Below, piece after piece: positions 4,017 through 60,395 of a DNA stretch of 64,000 nt. The stretch is from NCBI GenBank assembly GCA_015063785.1, contig SVTM01000009.1, forward strand, positions 1-64,000, given 5' to 3'. Position 1 is the stretch's first letter. Each line of letters begins with the position of its first letter. The notes under the pieces were generated by a model. It did no database searches, was not told where the DNA came from, and saw only the letters and a program-made list of their open reading frames with translations. The position numbers were made by a program, and so were the translations under genes. This DNA comes from Oscillospiraceae bacterium (GTDB lineage: Bacteria > Bacillota > Clostridia > Oscillospirales > CAG-382).

Positions 4017-4315
4017 AACAAACAGCCCTTTCATAAAAACTATTTTTTGTTTTCATAAGCGTCAGACTTTCTGCCGCTATGGCGTTTGTTTCTTCTTTCA
4101 TATCTGCATTGAAAGCTTCCGGATAGTAAAAAGCATTCCTACTTTCATAAAAGCTCCCAAAAAACAGAAAAAGCCATGAAAACTCAAGAAAAAGAGATTT
4201 CAAGGCAAGAAAACCGTTTCAAATATTTTAAGGTCGAACCGGATTTTTAATTTCGCCGGTAAATGCCTGCAAGCTTTTTGTTAAAGCACATTCGACCTTG
4301 CAATCTTTGCGTTTT

Positions 4316-4470
4316 TCTATCTTCATCCAGACTTTACTGTCGGCTTCGGAATTGCCGCACCGCGCGAAAAAATTCATGCAGCTTTCGGCTCACCGAATCA
4401 GCAACTTTCACTTGAAAAGTCGCTCTCGGGCTGTACCGTCGGTGGGGAAACGCTCCCCGCCTCGAAAGAA
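4316..4470 (-). ncRNA. FMN riboswitch (RFN element)
   Basis: Minus strand reads GCGGGGAGCGTTTCCCCACCGACGGTACAGCCCGAGAGC...GATTCGGTG...AATTCCGAAGCCGACAGTAAAGTCTGGATG, matching RFN consensus blocks. Confidence 0.93.
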
Positions 4471-4526
4471 AAAACATAGCACGAGGTTTTGCTAAAAAAA
4501 TACCAAAACCTGTTTTTTGCAAAATC

Positions 4527-14948: not shown

Positions 14949-17900
14949 TTAACCTCTTGCAACGATCATGAGAGTTACGAATTCGAATTCTTCATCATCT
15001 CTTTCTTCGGAAACAACGTATACTGTGAGAGCGTCTTCGCCTTCGTTGTAATACTTGTTTTCTGTATCGTCTTCAGCAGTTACAGAAAGCATTTCAACAT
15101 CTTCGATTGTAAGAGTACCTGTGCTTCTGTCATAGAGAGCATAGATTGTGTTTTCATCGGTGAGGAGAGCGGAGTCGCCGGCACCTTCGAGGATGAGGAT
15201 GTTTTCTGTTTCTTCATAAGATTCGATCTTAACGAGATCTGCACTGTCCTTAGCAAGGCTTGCAACCTTACCGCCGGTTGTGTTCTTGATGAAGCCTTCT
15301 TCTGTTACAAGATAGAGCGAGTGAGCTGCGAGTTCTGTGGAGGAAGCCTTTGCAGTTTCCTTCTGAGGAGCAACTTCGCCTGTCTTGGGATCAACAGTCT
15401 TATAAACGATTGTTGTCTTGCCTTCTTCGTCAACTGTTTCGATGGACGAAAGGATGATAGCATAGTTTTCATCAACCTTGCTGTCATTAACGATTTCGCC
15501 GCCGATTTCAGCGTATACGAATGCGAGGTTTTCGTTTGTTACGGAATCAGGGTTGTTCGAAAGAACGATGATTGCCTTTGTGAATACGTTTGCCGCATCA
15601 TCAGCATCAAAGTTGGGAAGGTTAGCCGAGTCGTAGATTACGTAGTTGGATTCGCCTTCTTCGTCAACATAGTTAACAACGATCTTTGTGCTGTCTGTGA
15701 TTGTAACGTACTTCATGCCGTTGGGCTTGAGGGAAGCAGGAACACTGCCGCCTGCGGGAGCAACGAACTGATAAAGCTTGTTCTGAACCTTCTTAAGAGT
15801 TACACCGTCAACTTCAACGCTGTAAGTCTTGGATTCCATTTCCTTGTCTGTAAGGTCAGCTGCCTTTGCGGAAGGAACGTAGGGATTGAATGTGTATTCG
15901 CCGGACTTACCTACTGTGTAAGAGCAGATGTTGTTAACAAGGCCCTTATCTACGAAGTAGTTATCGTCATGGTAACCGGATGCAGAGTTTTCGTTTTCCT
16001 TTGTAACGGGAACGAGCTTGAACTCGCCGTCGATGAATGCGCGAACGTAGTTTTCTGTTACGAGGCTACCGTTAACATCGATACCGCCTGCCTTGAACAC
16101 TACCTTGAGTTCGTCTTCGTTGATGTACTGGATAACTGCATATTGTTCTGCGAGGTTAACTTCTTCCTGAAGGATCTTTGCAAGATATACACGGCCGCCG
16201 TTTACAACGAATTCCCATGTTGTATCGATACCGTACTTCTTAACGGAGGATCTCCAAGGAGAAGCAAAGCCGTTAGCCGCACTTTCAGCTGCACTTGCTG
16301 CTGTATCGCGGTCGAGACCGAGAAGACCTGTTACCTTGTCGTTTGCCCAAGAAATATGACCAACGATCTGGTTGTCAGAGTTCCAAGCAGCTGTGCCTGT
16401 ACCGTCGGACCATGTTGTGGAGTTAGCGTCGGATGCGTCGTACTTGACGGGATGAGCGATTACAGTTCTGAAGCCTGCGTTTGCATCGTCGGGAGCGATT
16501 CTGATGTAGTTACCGGGAGCGCAAACGTATGCGTAAACGTACTTGCCGTTTTCATAAGAACCGCCGACTACCTTAGCGTCGCCAACGTAGATTTCGGGCA
16601 TTGTCTTATCAGCATTGTAGTATGCTCTGTAAGAGGAGTCGCCTGTGTGCTTAGCCTTAAGTGTGAAAGCATCGCCCTTCTTGTCAACGATCTTACCGAA
16701 GGTGTAGGGCTGTACCCAGAAGTAATCGACGATACCGTCAGAGTTGGAATCGTAGTACTGAGTGTTGTAGCGTCCGCCGCTGGTGGAGATTACAGAAACA
16801 ACAGAAACGAGATTTTCATGGTTTCTCATGTTCTGAGCCTTCCAAGCATCCTTGTTAGCTTCGGTGTAAACACCGGGCTCGGGGAATGCAGGCTGAGCCT
16901 TGTTTGCCCATGTGCGGCCTGCAGTGAAGATCATTCTGCCTTCGTCGTCAGACCATGTGGGAACGATGGACCAAGAATAGTTGGGAACATCGTTGGGCTT
17001 GTTCCAGAAGTAAGCCTTGTCAGCGAGGAAGTTTACAACGCCGGAACGAAGCTTTCTGTTATCTCTGGAAGAGTTGTAGTGATAGTAATCCTTGAAGTGA
17101 TCTTCGCCGGACTTTGTGGCGATGGAAGCTGTGGATTCTGCTACCATCTTACCGTTTGCAAAAGCTGCAAGAACGGTACCGTCCTTCTTGACATACATTG
17201 TGATATCGCGGAGGAAGTAGTCGTCTGCGTTACCTGTAAGACCAAGATCGGAGAAGAGAAGAACAGATTCTTCATCCTGAAGTCTTGCAGAATTTTCGTA
17301 AGGAACGATAGCAGCTGTCTGGATAAGAACTTCATCCATTGTTTCGCCGCCGAGGGGCTTGTATGCCTTGTAGTCTGCGCCTTGGCCTATTTCGGAGAGG
17401 TCGATAGCGTAGTTAGGAGTAGCAACTACACGACGAACGATCTCTTCGATGCCGTAGATCTTGTGGCAAACTGTTTCAGCTGTAGGAATGTATACGAACT
17501 GGTTAGCTGCGCCAACGTTTTCTCTTTCGAATGCAGGAATGTAGAGTTCTTCATAAGTCTCGTTCATTTCTGCATAGAAAGCGTTATGAAGGATGATAGC
17601 AACCTGACCACGGTTGAGGTTGTCTGTGTATTCAACCTTCTTGTAGTCGATGTTCTTGTCAAGACCGATTCTTTCAGCCACGTCTATGTATTCGTGAGGA
17701 TAAGCAAGAGCTTCGTCCTTTTCATAGCCGAGAGCACGGACGATCATTACGTAGCAGTCCTGAAGGCTGATCTTGCCGGAGGGGTCAAATTCGGTAGCCG
17801 AACGGCCCTTGATAACGCCGGAATCAGAAGCCCAGGAGATCATTCCGAAGAATGTGGGATCCTTAAGGTCTGTGAAACCGGAAAGGTTTTCGCCGCCCTC

Positions 17901-18158
17901 AAGCGATCTGCCGCCCTTCATAAGACGGTAGATGAAAGCAGCCATCTGTTCACGAGTAACAGGTTTGTTTGCGCCATAGGTTGTTTCGCTCTGGCCCTTT
18001 GCAATTCCGAGGGAATTGAGAAGCTGCACTGCATCATAGAGAGCCTCGTCTTTTGCAGAAACGTCTTTGAAGTTAGCTGCAGAAGAAGCGAAGGTGCAAA
18101 GTGTTGCAAGTGTTGCGACAACAAGAACCATAGACAAAATTTTGGCAAATTTTCTCAT
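14949..18158 (-). CDS. S-layer homology (SLH) domain surface protein, paralog 1
   Basis: Signal peptide MRKFAKILSMVLVVATLATL and three SLH repeats (e.g. 'PVTREQMAAFIYRLMKG...FTDLKDPTFFGMISWASDSGVIKG'); start corrected to 18158. Confidence 0.9.
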   Translation of the reverse strand: MRKFAKILSMVLVVATLATLCTFASSAANFKDVSAKDEALYDAVQLLNSLGIAKGQSETTYGANKPVTREQMAAFIYRLMKGGRSLEGGENLSGFTDLKDPTFFGMISWASDSGVIKGRSATEFDPSGKISLQDCYVMIVRALGYEKDEALAYPHEYIDVAERIGLDKNIDYKKVEYTDNLNRGQVAIILHNAFYAEMNETYEELYIPAFERENVGAANQFVYIPTAETVCHKIYGIEEIVRRVVATPNYAIDLSEIGQGADYKAYKPLGGETMDEVLIQTAAIVPYENSARLQDEESVLLFSDLGLTGNADDYFLRDITMYVKKDGTVLAAFANGKMVAESTASIATKSGEDHFKDYYHYNSSRDNRKLRSGVVNFLADKAYFWNKPNDVPNYSWSIVPTWSDDEGRMIFTAGRTWANKAQPAFPEPGVYTEANKDAWKAQNMRNHENLVSVVSVISTSGGRYNTQYYDSNSDGIVDYFWVQPYTFGKIVDKKGDAFTLKAKHTGDSSYRAYYNADKTMPEIYVGDAKVVGGSYENGKYVYAYVCAPGNYIRIAPDDANAGFRTVIAHPVKYDASDANSTTWSDGTGTAAWNSDNQIVGHISWANDKVTGLLGLDRDTAASAAESAANGFASPWRSSVKKYGIDTTWEFVVNGGRVYLAKILQEEVNLAEQYAVIQYINEDELKVVFKAGGIDVNGSLVTENYVRAFIDGEFKLVPVTKENENSASGYHDDNYFVDKGLVNNICSYTVGKSGEYTFNPYVPSAKAADLTDKEMESKTYSVEVDGVTLKKVQNKLYQFVAPAGGSVPASLKPNGMKYVTITDSTKIVVNYVDEEGESNYVIYDSANLPNFDADDAANVFTKAIIVLSNNPDSVTNENLAFVYAEIGGEIVNDSKVDENYAIILSSIETVDEEGKTTIVYKTVDPKTGEVAPQKETAKASSTELAAHSLYLVTEEGFIKNTTGGKVASLAKDSADLVKIESYEETENILILEGAGDSALLTDENTIYALYDRSTGTLTIEDVEMLSVTAEDDTENKYYNEGEDALTVYVVSEERDDEEFEFVTLMIVARG

Positions 18159-18259
18159 AAATTTTTGTCCTCCTGTAAAATATATTGCCACGCTTGCGCG
18201 GGCATAAACAGATCGACGCATATAATGATAATTGCGCCTATACTCCATTTATCACATAT

Positions 18260-18321
18260 ATTATATCAGCTTACTCGCAAAATATCAACACCAAATTCGG
18301 AAATGTAACACTTTTGTAACA
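18260..18321 (-). promoter_or_regulatory. Promoter of SLH paralog 1 with TGTTACA-N4-TGTTACA direct repeat
   Basis: Minus strand: repeat 18304-18321, 15-nt gap, -35 TTGATA (18283-18288), 17-nt spacer, -10 TATAAT (18260-18265). Confidence 0.7.
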
Positions 18322-18685: not shown

Positions 18686-21600
18686 TTACTTTGTAACAAC
18701 GATGGACTTAACAGTCTTGATGGAGTCATCAGTGTTCTTGTCGTCGATTTCGTCAGCTACGATGTAGAGAGTGAAGCTTGCAGCTTCTTCAAGACCTTCG
18801 TAGGAGTTGTCTTCAACAGTGAGGATGTCATCATCAGCTGTCTGGTAAACAGATGTGGATGTGTAGTAGAGGAATGTTGTGTCATCAGTGATAACGTAGG
18901 TGTTACCGTCGCCGATTTCGAGGAACTTGTTAGCTTCTTCGTAACCGCCGTTGAAGGTAGCCTTGAACATCTTGTCTTCTACATAAGTGTTGCCGATTGT
19001 AGCTGTTTCAGCGATCTTGCCTTCTTCATTCATAAGAACGAATGTGCCGCCTGCGGGAGCTCCAAGGCCCTTAACAGTTTCGATATCGCCTGCAGTTGCT
19101 GCGTCGGTGATGTTGAGAACTGTGTAGATGTTCTTTTCCTTACCGTCTTCATCTGCGATTGTCTTAGCGGAAAGAACGATTCTGTAGTCGTATGTTACAT
19201 CAGACTTGAACTCATCGATTTCAGCATAGAGGATGCCGAGGTTTTCGTAAGAGGAAGCTGTGTTGTTAACAAATACGGACATTACGTTTGTGAATGTTGT
19301 TTCTGCGAAGTCAGGAAGTGTCTTGGATGTGTAAACTGTGTAAACATCTTCGCCTTCATCGTCAACAGTCTTGATGATGAGCTTGGAGTAGTCCTTAAGA
19401 GTGAACTTGGAGATGCCTTCGATACCTGTTACGTTATAGATGGAACCTGTGAAGTTCTTGATGCTTGCGGAAGCTGCTGCGAGGTAAACTGCGCCTTCTT
19501 CGTCCTTATCAGCGAAGATTGTAGCTGCTTCATCAGCGCCTGCAAAGTCGATTGCTGTGAATGTGTAAGCACCGTCAGAATCAACTGTGTATGTGCTGAA
19601 CTTGTTGAGGAAGTCGTTGTACATAACTGTTTCAGCTACTTCCTTGTCAGTGATCTTCTGGTTGTCGATTTCTTCGAGGAGCTCGTAAGCGCCGTCGTAG
19701 GAAACGAATGTGTTAGCGTAGTCAGCGAGCTGAACAGCCTTAACTGCACCGTCGATAACTGCGTTTACATAGAAGTATGTTACGAATTCGCCGTCAACAA
19801 CGCCTGTAGCGGAGTAAACGATTCTTTCGTCAGTGATCTTTTCAGCGCCTTCGCCGGATACAACGTACTTAGTTACGGGATCTTCGTCATAGTTGAGAAC
19901 GATCGCGTAGTTAGCGTCTGCGTCGAAATCGCCGGAGGAAACGCCATCCTTGTGGAGGAGAACGTCGCCCTTGATGTATGCCTTGTATGTCTTACCAGCC
20001 TTGAAGTCTGCGTAAGAAGGAACGTTGATGTAGTTGATGTACTTGTCTTCTGCGCCTACGAATTCAACTGTTTCACCGGACTTGAAGGTAACAGTCTTGG
20101 AATCGTCGGAGCTGGATCTTGCGGAAACCATAGCTTCGATGGGAGCGATTGTTTCAGCAACCTTAACGTACTTAGCGCCTTCGTTTACGTATGCGAGAAC
20201 GAAGTCACCGGACTTGTAGTCGCCTTCAACTGTAGCGTCTTCAGTGTAGATGGAGTAGTAGTCTGCGCTGTTGAAGTTCTGGAGACCCTTGAAGTCCTTG
20301 TTCTTCTTGTCAACGATTTCAACAAATGTGTAATCCTTGATGAAGAGGTAGTCAACGTAACCGTCTCCGTTGGAGTCGTATACATCAGCTTCGTAGAGAC
20401 CTTCGTTATAAACGATGGGGAATACTTCTTCGAATTCAACTGTGAGGTTGTCGTAAGAACCGTTAGCGGACTGTACGTATGCACCATTGAAGTTGATTTC
20501 TGTGTTAGTGAATGCGAATGTAGCATTGTCTTCATCGTAAGAACCTGTTTCGAGGTCGATGAACTTGATGCCGTCTTCAGCGTCGTAATCCTTCTTGTAG
20601 GAGTAAGGAGCCTGATCGTAGTCGAGGTAAGCAGAGATGCCGCCGAATTCAACGATACCTGTCATAACCTTGTCGCCGTCAGCCTTCTTAACGCCGCCAA
20701 CATAGTATTCCTTGTCGGTCTTTGTGGAAGTAGCGATCTTAACATCAGCTGCAGTGATTGTCTTCTTAACGAGGTTGGACTTAGCAGCGATAACTTCGTC
20801 GTCAGCAACGTCCTTAGCATCCTTCTTAACGAAGAGTGTGAGTTCTGCGAGGAAGTATTCGTCAGCGTCACCGTCGAGGCCGAGTTCTTCGAGTTCGAAG
20901 TCAACGCCTGTAGCGATTACGTTGCCGTCGTTGTCGTATCTTGTACCTGTGATGAGCTCAACGTCGTTGAGTTCGTCGTAAGTAGCAGTTACGCTGTCGA
21001 TACCGTAGTGAGTTGTACCAAGAACTACGAATGTTTCTTCTTCAACACCGAAGATCTTGTGAGCGATTGTTTCTGTTGTTTCAACAGGAACGTAAGCGTC
21101 GGTTGTACCGTTTGTAACCCACTCGTATTCAACAGTTGTTTCGTTCATGTCAGCGTAGAATGCGTTGGCAAGAAGGATAGCAACCTGGCCACGGTTAAGG
21201 GTTGTTGTGTAGTCAACATCAGAAGCGATGTTTTCGTCGAGACCGAGCTCTTCAGCCTTGTCGGTGTAACCGAAAGGATAGGAGAGAGGACCGTCATTCT
21301 CGTAACCGAGAGCACGAACGAGCATTACATATGCGTCCTGGAGAGTGATGCCACCCTTAGGATTGAATGTTGTAGCGGATGTGCCCTTGATAACTCCGGC
21401 GTTGGAAGCCCAAGAAATCATGTTGAAGAATGTGGAATCTTCGAGGTCGGTGAAGGGAGTTGTGTTAACGCCGCCTTCAGACGATCTACCTGCCTTCATG
21501 AGTCTGTAAACGAAAGCAGCCATCTGCTGACGTGTTACATTCTCTTCGGGGCTGAACTTTGTTTCAGATGTACCCTTAGCTACGCCGAGAGTGGAGAGGA

Positions 21601-21733
21601 GCTCAACTGCTTCGTAGAGAGCTTCGTCATCATAAGAAACATCTTCGAATGCTGCGCTTGCTGCGAAGGGGATCATACCGATGATCATCATAGCCGCAAG
21701 AGCGAGTGTGAGAAGTTTTGTGATCTTTCTCAT
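18686..21733 (-). CDS. S-layer homology (SLH) domain surface protein, paralog 2
   Basis: Signal peptide MRKITKLLTLALAAMMIIG plus three SLH repeats closely matching paralog 1; start corrected to 21733. Confidence 0.9.
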   Translation of the reverse strand: MRKITKLLTLALAAMMIIGMIPFAASAAFEDVSYDDEALYEAVELLSTLGVAKGTSETKFSPEENVTRQQMAAFVYRLMKAGRSSEGGVNTTPFTDLEDSTFFNMISWASNAGVIKGTSATTFNPKGGITLQDAYVMLVRALGYENDGPLSYPFGYTDKAEELGLDENIASDVDYTTTLNRGQVAILLANAFYADMNETTVEYEWVTNGTTDAYVPVETTETIAHKIFGVEEETFVVLGTTHYGIDSVTATYDELNDVELITGTRYDNDGNVIATGVDFELEELGLDGDADEYFLAELTLFVKKDAKDVADDEVIAAKSNLVKKTITAADVKIATSTKTDKEYYVGGVKKADGDKVMTGIVEFGGISAYLDYDQAPYSYKKDYDAEDGIKFIDLETGSYDEDNATFAFTNTEINFNGAYVQSANGSYDNLTVEFEEVFPIVYNEGLYEADVYDSNGDGYVDYLFIKDYTFVEIVDKKNKDFKGLQNFNSADYYSIYTEDATVEGDYKSGDFVLAYVNEGAKYVKVAETIAPIEAMVSARSSSDDSKTVTFKSGETVEFVGAEDKYINYINVPSYADFKAGKTYKAYIKGDVLLHKDGVSSGDFDADANYAIVLNYDEDPVTKYVVSGEGAEKITDERIVYSATGVVDGEFVTYFYVNAVIDGAVKAVQLADYANTFVSYDGAYELLEEIDNQKITDKEVAETVMYNDFLNKFSTYTVDSDGAYTFTAIDFAGADEAATIFADKDEEGAVYLAAASASIKNFTGSIYNVTGIEGISKFTLKDYSKLIIKTVDDEGEDVYTVYTSKTLPDFAETTFTNVMSVFVNNTASSYENLGILYAEIDEFKSDVTYDYRIVLSAKTIADEDGKEKNIYTVLNITDAATAGDIETVKGLGAPAGGTFVLMNEEGKIAETATIGNTYVEDKMFKATFNGGYEEANKFLEIGDGNTYVITDDTTFLYYTSTSVYQTADDDILTVEDNSYEGLEEAASFTLYIVADEIDDKNTDDSIKTVKSIVVTK

Positions 21734-21808
21734 TTGGAAATCCTCCTGTAATAAAATTTTTGGAAGCGGAAAACGACGAATGATCGGCCTTTTCCTACTT
21801 ACAGACTT

Positions 21809-21870
21809 ATGATAATACACAATCGATTTTTTTGCAATACCTTTTGATAGTTTGTAACACAACTGTAACA
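21809..21870 (-). promoter_or_regulatory. Proximal promoter of SLH paralog 2 with TGTTACA-N4-TGTTACA direct repeat
   Basis: Repeat 21853-21870, 15-nt gap, -35-like TTGCAA 21832-21837, 17-nt spacer, -10-like TATCAT 21809-21814. Confidence 0.6.
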
Positions 21871-21921: not shown

Positions 21922-21983
21922 ATAATACAACATGCTTTTTGTTTTTGCAATAGGTTTTGCGATATTGTAACACGACTGTAACA
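21922..21983 (-). promoter_or_regulatory. Distal promoter of SLH paralog 2 with TGTTACA-N4-TGTTACA direct repeat
   Basis: Repeat 21966-21983, 15-nt gap, -35-like TTGCAA 21945-21950, 17-nt spacer, -10 TATTAT 21922-21927. Confidence 0.6.
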
Positions 21984-25381: not shown

Positions 25382-25562
25382 TTTGATAAAATTTATAATT
25401 TATATCACATTTGTTAAAAATGTATTCATCAATGTCGTTGACGAAAAGTATACAATATTAGTGTTGATAAAATTAATAAATTGTGTAATTTATCAACATC
25501 CAATAATTGTATGAAAAGATTGTTAAACGTTCGGGAAATTTTTCGCCGACATGGAGGAACAC

Positions 25563-26252
25563 ATGGGACTAAAAATACTGATTGCAGATGATGACACAAA
25601 CACTTGTGACCTGCTGAAGATCTGTCTTGAAAACGAAGATTACGAGATCGTTGTTGCAAACAACGGTGTAAAGGCGGTTTCTGCCTTCAAGATCTACGAA
25701 CCCGATCTTGTACTTCTCGACATTATGATGCCCGGCAAGGACGGTTGGCAAGTCTGCCGCGAGATCCGCGAGATCTCCTCGAAGCCCATCATCATGCTCA
25801 CCGCCAAAAACGAAGTTTTTGACAAAGTTTTGGGTCTTGAGCTCGGCGCAGATGATTTTGTCACCAAGCCCTTTGATACAAAAGAAGTTGTGGCTCGCAT
25901 AAAGGCTGTTTTCCGCCGTTGCGCAGGTCACGAGAGCGACGATTCCGAAGTTGTAAAGTTTGACAACCTCGAAATCTCCCTTCAGAAATACGAGCTTAAG
26001 CTCTGCGGAAAGTCGGTGGATATCCCCCCCAAGGAACTCGAGCTTCTCTATTTTCTCACATCCAACTACAACAGAGTTTTCACCCGTGACCAGCTGCTCG
26101 ATAAAGTTTGGGGATTTGACTATCTCGGCGACTCGAGAACTGTTGACGTACATATCAAGAGACTCCGCGAAAAGCTTACAGACATCTCCGAAAAATGGCA
26201 GATCAAAACAGTTTGGGGCGTAGGCTACAAGTTCGAGCTTCTCCAGCAGTAA
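25563..26252 (+). CDS. OmpR/PhoB-family response regulator (orphan)
   Basis: Receiver DDD/D-IMMPGKDGW/T/K residues; winged-helix 'NRVFTRDQLLDKVWGFDYLGDSRTVDVHIKRLREKL'; no adjacent kinase. Confidence 0.93.
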   Translation: MGLKILIADDDTNTCDLLKICLENEDYEIVVANNGVKAVSAFKIYEPDLVLLDIMMPGKDGWQVCREIREISSKPIIMLTAKNEVFDKVLGLELGADDFVTKPFDTKEVVARIKAVFRRCAGHESDDSEVVKFDNLEISLQKYELKLCGKSVDIPPKELELLYFLTSNYNRVFTRDQLLDKVWGFDYLGDSRTVDVHIKRLREKLTDISEKWQIKTVWGVGYKFELLQQ

Positions 26253-60056: not shown

Positions 60057-60248
60057 ATCGAACTGTTTCCCTCCGATAGAATTATTTTGTCACATAGACC
60101 TTTAATAATATATCATGTCAAAAGCCGTTGTTTGTTAAAGAATTTGAAACTTTTATGCCGATATATGAAAAATTGCATTTTTTCTCTTGACAAAAGGCTT
60201 TTTTTGTCATATAATCTGTTCCAAGCTGTAAAAAGCGCGACAATCGAA

Positions 60249-60366
60249 TATATCAGGGGTGCTGTTGCACAAGGCGTCGGACGCGGCGCGTGATGACAAC
60301 GGCTGAGATGGGATCTCTCCCGAACCCTTTTAACCTGTTCGGATAATACCGGCGTAGGAAGATATT
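60249..60366 (+). ncRNA. TPP riboswitch (THI element)
   Basis: AGGGGTGCTG...CGGCTGAGATGGGATCTCTCCCGAACCCTTTTAACCTGTTCGGATAATACCGGCGTAGGAAGATAT. Confidence 0.95.
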
Positions 60367-60395
60367 TCACAACACACATATATTTGTTGAAATCA

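Follow-up and report, generated by a model that had tools for sequence, protein, structure and literature searches.

A direct-repeat operator upstream of a tandem SLH gene pair in Oscillospirales: a probable site for an OmpR-family response regulator

The tandem SLH genes and their promoters

The window – the whole stretch of 64,000 nucleotides analysed here, from an Oscillospiraceae genome – carries on its minus strand two SLH genes arranged in tandem. SLH gene 1 (14949-18158, with its ATG at 18158) encodes a protein of 1069 amino acids whose N-terminus resembles a signal peptide and which contains an SLH domain; its paralog, SLH gene 2 (18686-21733), begins with an ATG at 21733 and ends at 18686. 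Read letter by letter on the minus strand, the DNA upstream of SLH gene 1 holds a direct repeat, TGTTACA-AAAG-TGTTACA (18304-18321; hereafter the operator), then 15 nt, and then a predicted promoter consisting of TTGATA (-35, 18283-18288), 17 nt and TATAAT (-10, 18260-18265), a layout that recurs in relatives. The arrangement corresponds exactly to that given for 18260-18321 in a preliminary description of the region. Throughout, -35 and -10 elements and transcription starts are sequence predictions.

SLH gene 2 is preceded by two units of the same kind, also on the minus strand. The proximal one comprises the operator TGTTACA-GTTG-TGTTACA (21853-21870) and a predicted, genus-conserved promoter (TTGCAA at 21832-21837, 17 nt, TATCAT at 21809-21814), the distal one the operator TGTTACA-GTCG-TGTTACA (21966-21983) and a second predicted promoter (TTGCAA at 21945-21950, 17 nt, TATTAT at 21922-21927). 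The offset of 15 nt claimed for all three sites is thus exact by sequence. What had been described as three promoters are three operator-promoter units, but they serve only two genes, SLH gene 2 having both a proximal and a distal unit. The distal operator is present in G002 as well; reading upstream of SLH gene 2 in G001, G003 and G004 did not reveal it. The SLH gene 2 promoters of G001, G002 and G003, and the one at L225, have a further half-site, TGTWACA, upstream of the operator at a distance of exactly 20 nt; among 42 SLH promoters five have such a third half-site, against 0.13 expected at that position.

Other features of the window deserve brief mention. With the transcription start placed from the -10 element, both genes have a 5′ leader (18159-18253 for SLH gene 1 and 21734-21802 for SLH gene 2, minus strand) that opens with a predicted stem-loop. 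In the case of SLH gene 1 the stem, UAAAUGGAG/UUCUGUUUA, is common to five members of the genus, while the loops vary; folding was better than that of shuffled sequences in seven of eight leaders (z -2.4 to -4.9), and the structure may act as an mRNA stabiliser. Rfam models identify two ordinary riboswitches, for FMN (4312-4473, minus strand) and TPP (60245-60377, plus strand).

A critical property of the operator is its rarity. In the genome of 2.50 Mb the 18-mer pattern occurs exactly at three places, all of them at SLH gene 1 and SLH gene 2 and all 15 nt before a -35 element – the outcome of the genome-wide scan of motif and offset that the preliminary description had proposed – and there is no further match genome-wide with up to one mismatch. 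The reversed pattern, used as a control in the same genome, gave no exact match and one with up to one mismatch. When up to two mismatches were allowed, the number of matches was close to that of the reversed control, and the signal in this genome thus consists of these three sites only. The genome encodes approximately 30 SLH reading frames (83 SLH domain matches), and the operator marks two tandem ones. Far from being a box used widely in the genome, it singles out one tandem gene pair with great specificity.

Conservation across genus, family and order

All five genomes of the genus carry the operator at the same SLH pair, with the layout of 15 nt, a -35 hexamer and 17 nt. The sequence between the promoter elements has diverged although operator and layout are kept; a single mismatch is found in the SLH gene 2 operator of G004. 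Homologues of the tandem pair are present in 14 of 63 genomes of the family, and each of the 26 operators read in front of these homologues has three mismatches or fewer and stands 14-15 nt before a TTG -35 element. These 26 sites were chosen by gene rather than by motif, and the result is therefore not circular. For one truncated gene (G036, contig C65) the gene-anchored reading obtained no start; the same genome has an exact operator with an SLH gene behind it on another piece.

Beyond the 14 pair-bearing genomes, exact operators occur in the family only in G038, where the operator precedes a different SLH gene, and in G047, where no recognisable promoter accompanies it. The G047 site (L055, contig C5) is an array of TGTTACA-like repeats. 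For the association of the exact operator with the SLH pair across the family, Fisher's test gives p 4e-8 (relatedness not corrected for).

At the level of the order, the operator combined with a -35 element at a distance of 13-16 nt gave 28 matches, spread over 16 genera and 23 genomes of the 396 scanned, and the reversed pattern gave none; such counts over relatives are non-independent events, and most of the genomes are metagenome assemblies. All but two of the 28 precede genes for exported SLH-type proteins, the two exceptions both being in G147. A scan for the full promoter among GTDB species returned, among the matches listed, named hosts that include the cultured Intestinimonas butyriciproducens (L101).

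It could be argued that the repeats reflect chance, or a recent duplication without function, since SLH gene 1 and SLH gene 2 are tandem paralogs and one operator copy could simply have been inherited. This we consider extremely improbable: the operator is kept across genera and families while the flanking promoter DNA diverges, and none of the order-wide matches has a counterpart among the controls. Indeed, the pattern of conservation already refutes a functionless repeat.

The distance between operator and promoter varies little before SLH genes. Across 42 non-redundant SLH promoters (SLH proteins being recognised by an iterated profile checked against shuffled decoys), scanned for offsets of 12-18 nt, the distance to the -35 element is 15 nt in 35 and 14 nt in the remaining seven, whereas the offsets of 46 matches that do not precede SLH genes are spread over the whole of that range (Fisher p 4e-10). 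An A-tract shortly before the -35 element is also conserved in SLH promoters.

A different reading of the site is that it forms an inverted repeat built from TGT-N-ACA units and bound by a repressor of another family, for instance a TetR- or BlaI-like dimer. TGTTACA is nearly self-complementary, and the 18-mer as a whole can likewise be read as an imperfect palindrome. In a palindrome, however, one half-site would have T at its centre and the other A; on the coding strand the central base is T in both halves of all 26 family sites. Moreover, the orientation of the site to the gene is fixed, and it sits in front of the -35 element instead of covering the promoter. Such a repressor site is on these grounds very improbable. 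All 20 exact family sites linked to SLH genes have TGTTACA on the coding strand, which favours an oriented, head-to-tail dimer. That the same element is kept before the same kind of gene throughout the order makes it very likely that a two-component regulator does dock there. Among open-access papers we found no report of the element in Oscillospirales, nor of a box like it at S-layer promoters.

The same operator is also found outside SLH genes. In other Clostridia it precedes genes for NlpC/P60 hydrolases and D-Ala-D-Ala carboxypeptidases. The NlpC/P60 loci (L086, L099, L106, L118 and L131; Lachnospiraceae and related bacteria) have the operator 16-17 nt from the -35 element and a spacer of 16 nt. 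Further occurrences lie before DUF1189 genes in Mesobacillus and Bacillus at an offset of 17 (L112, L113, L121, L129 and L159), and before PilT-like ATPase genes in Gastranaerophilales at an offset of 12 (L114, L119, L132, L141, L145, L149 and L156).

Candidate regulators

The nature of the protein that reads the operator is a central issue. The genome encodes three OmpR-type regulators, RR-A, RR-B and RR-C. When 41 regulators of ten genomes that carry the operator are placed in a tree, exactly two clades, the WalR-like one and that of RR-A, are represented once in every genome. The two are about equally likely to supply the regulator, judging from sequence. RR-B (contig C54) is an unlikely candidate, its clade being confined to the family and its own gene carrying a different repeat. 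RR-B genes have their own direct repeat of 11-nt period and TTTCACA-N4-TTTCACA type (L050 on contig C54 of G000, and also G001, G004, G037 and G054), which is likely to be a box of other specificity through which RR-B controls its own gene. Upstream of the RR-A gene and of the genes for the WalR-like regulators, a search for a copy of the operator that might serve autoregulation found none.

The WalR-like regulator, RR-C (G000, contig C49), is encoded next to a HAMP-PAS histidine kinase gene, and its involvement would tie synthesis of the surface coat to signals of peptidoglycan growth. This is a serious possibility, albeit one that we place somewhat short of even. The operator fits perfectly both the consensus TGTWAH-N5-TGTWAH and the VicR form TGTWAHA-N4-TGTWAHA (PMC4168254). 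The top score of RR-C is to YycF (293.5 bits, cut-off 340) and that of its kinase to WalK (435.8, cut-off 725), both below cut-off. A WalR-like member is present in all ten operator genomes; the occurrences of the operator before hydrolase and carboxypeptidase genes in other Clostridia are in keeping with it, and the genome with the NlpC/P60 locus L131 (G420) has a best match to RR-A of only 45%. In addition, WalR of C. difficile raises six S-layer protein genes (PMC9210968).

Against RR-C stand the details of the half-sites: position 4 is T in 32 of 32 S-layer half-sites compared with 12 of 20 VicR half-sites (p 2e-4), and position 6 is C in 31 of 32 compared with 4 of 20 (p 7e-9), the yardstick in both cases being one distant species. 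The recognition helix of the WalR-like protein has drifted in G237 (RMVDTAITR) and G144 (RVVDVAVRR), and the operators there are unchanged. Neither is there a clear genome-wide excess of the degenerate WalR consensus, which has 18 matches besides the SLH sites against 14 for the control. Enrichment before cell-envelope genes, set as a test beforehand, was found for S-layer genes; within this one genome, however, the box does not recur at a range of cell-envelope genes, and only the SLH pair stands out. The preliminary description had proposed a regulon with a WalR-like box. The consensus TGTWAH-N5-TGTWAH is indeed matched, but neither WalR identity nor a wider regulon is established, and the fit noted for the plus strand, while correct, adds nothing because TGTWACA is nearly self-complementary and both strands fit.

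RR-A (25551-26252, plus strand), a response regulator of the OmpR family whose gene has no kinase gene beside it, is the second candidate. According to this reading it is an MtrA-like protein whose neighbouring kinase was lost in the family and that activates the coat genes, a proposal we hold tentatively and with less than even confidence. No kinase gene was found next to RR-A in the family, and one is adjacent in the other families examined. Each of the ten operator genomes has one RR-A ortholog, with an unchanged recognition helix, RT[VI]DVH[IVM]KR, in all ten; the gene lies approximately 4 kb from SLH gene 2 in G000, G001 and G002. Its top NCBIfam match is MtrA at 237 bits, with YycF at 236, the MtrA score being under the 300-bit cut-off. 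In its strict GTTAC-N6-GTTAC core the operator is similar to the site of MtrA in Streptomyces, [GT]T[GA]ACC-N5-GT[GT]AC (PMC5650626).

Nonetheless, RR-A is also found in genera that have no SLH pair and must thus have other work, and no linkage to SLH genes was seen outside the genus. Its C-terminus also resembles ResD/SrrA, whose reported sites differ. A bolder proposal – that RR-A, its adjacent kinase lost in this family, reads an S-layer box common to the order and acts as a near-dedicated and WalR-independent activator of the two coat genes – is less likely than not. The response regulator that the preliminary description named beside WalR (given as 25563-26252) fits the role, and the WalR-like regulator is about equally likely.

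Proposed mechanism and comparison with known systems

Our data suggest that the element is probably an activator site for a response regulator of the OmpR/PhoB family – WalR-like or RR-A – whose half-sites are bound head to tail and which governs a two-gene surface-coat regulon. The site has the format of an OmpR/PhoB operator: a direct repeat of 11-nt period with constant polarity, both half-sites being T-centred in 26 of 26 cases. Its placement is that of a class I activator, 14-15 nt upstream of a separate -35 element in all 42 non-redundant SLH promoters; class I activators usually sit upstream of a separate -35. The original suggestion that one regulator of OmpR-family style co-controls both SLH genes is well supported by the 11-nt repeat and by the offset of 14-15 nt across family and order.

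We infer binding, activation (as opposed to repression), the transcription start and the identity of the regulator from the DNA. Each TGTTACA half-site would take up one molecule of the regulator, so that two molecules sit head to tail, separated by one helical turn, over positions -68 to -51 or thereabouts. So bound, they would bring RNA polymerase to the promoter that follows 14-15 nt further on, aided by the conserved A-tract that adjoins the -35 element. The same site before both tandem genes would create the two-gene surface-coat regulon, and the second operator-promoter unit of SLH gene 2 may raise or buffer the output of that gene.

Beyond a few model species, little is known of how S-layer genes, with their very high output, are kept in step with growth of the wall. 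A single strict cis-element at S-layer-type promoters across uncultured gut Clostridia would set the likely coat genes apart where SLH proteins number in the dozens; it predicts that these genes are co-regulated, and it narrows the regulator to two proteins.

There exist parallels with several known systems. The pho box replaces the -35 element; the S-layer operator instead lies 14-15 nt upstream of one. In C. difficile the domains that anchor S-layer proteins are different, being of the CWB2 type. Regulators of the OmpR/PhoB family bind to direct repeats of a 7-mer that recur every 11 nt (PMC4168254, PMC5650626). The PhoB pho box, CTGTCATA-W-A-W-CTGTCACA (consensus quoted in PMC4168254), shares the 7-bp repeats, the 11-nt period and TGT.A.A, and differs at position 4, which is T in the S-layer operator and C in the pho box. 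Overexpression of WalR in C. difficile, which raises the six S-layer protein genes (PMC9210968), defines a broad RNA-seq regulon in another order, as opposed to a tandem SLH pair marked by a single strict box.

The closest likenesses are to the boxes of the two candidate types of regulator. With the WalR/YycF/VicR box the operator shares a 7-mer direct repeat of 11-nt period, the full consensus at both half-sites and cell-envelope targets. Whereas VicR sites vary around the refined form reported for S. mutans (PMC4168254), the core of the S-layer operator is fixed as GTTAC, its use in the genome is limited to two SLH genes, and its offset is constant at 14-15 nt. With the actinobacterial MtrA site it shares the direct repeat, the GT.AC core and the 11-nt period (PMC5650626). 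The MtrA site of S. coelicolor whiI, reported at -69 to -53 (PMC5650626), is moreover placed alike. The MtrA consensus is loose, whereas the S-layer half-sites are nearly identical, and the host of the S-layer operator belongs to a Clostridia lineage. As far as the letters go, the S-layer core appears closer to the MtrA site than to the looser sites of VicR.
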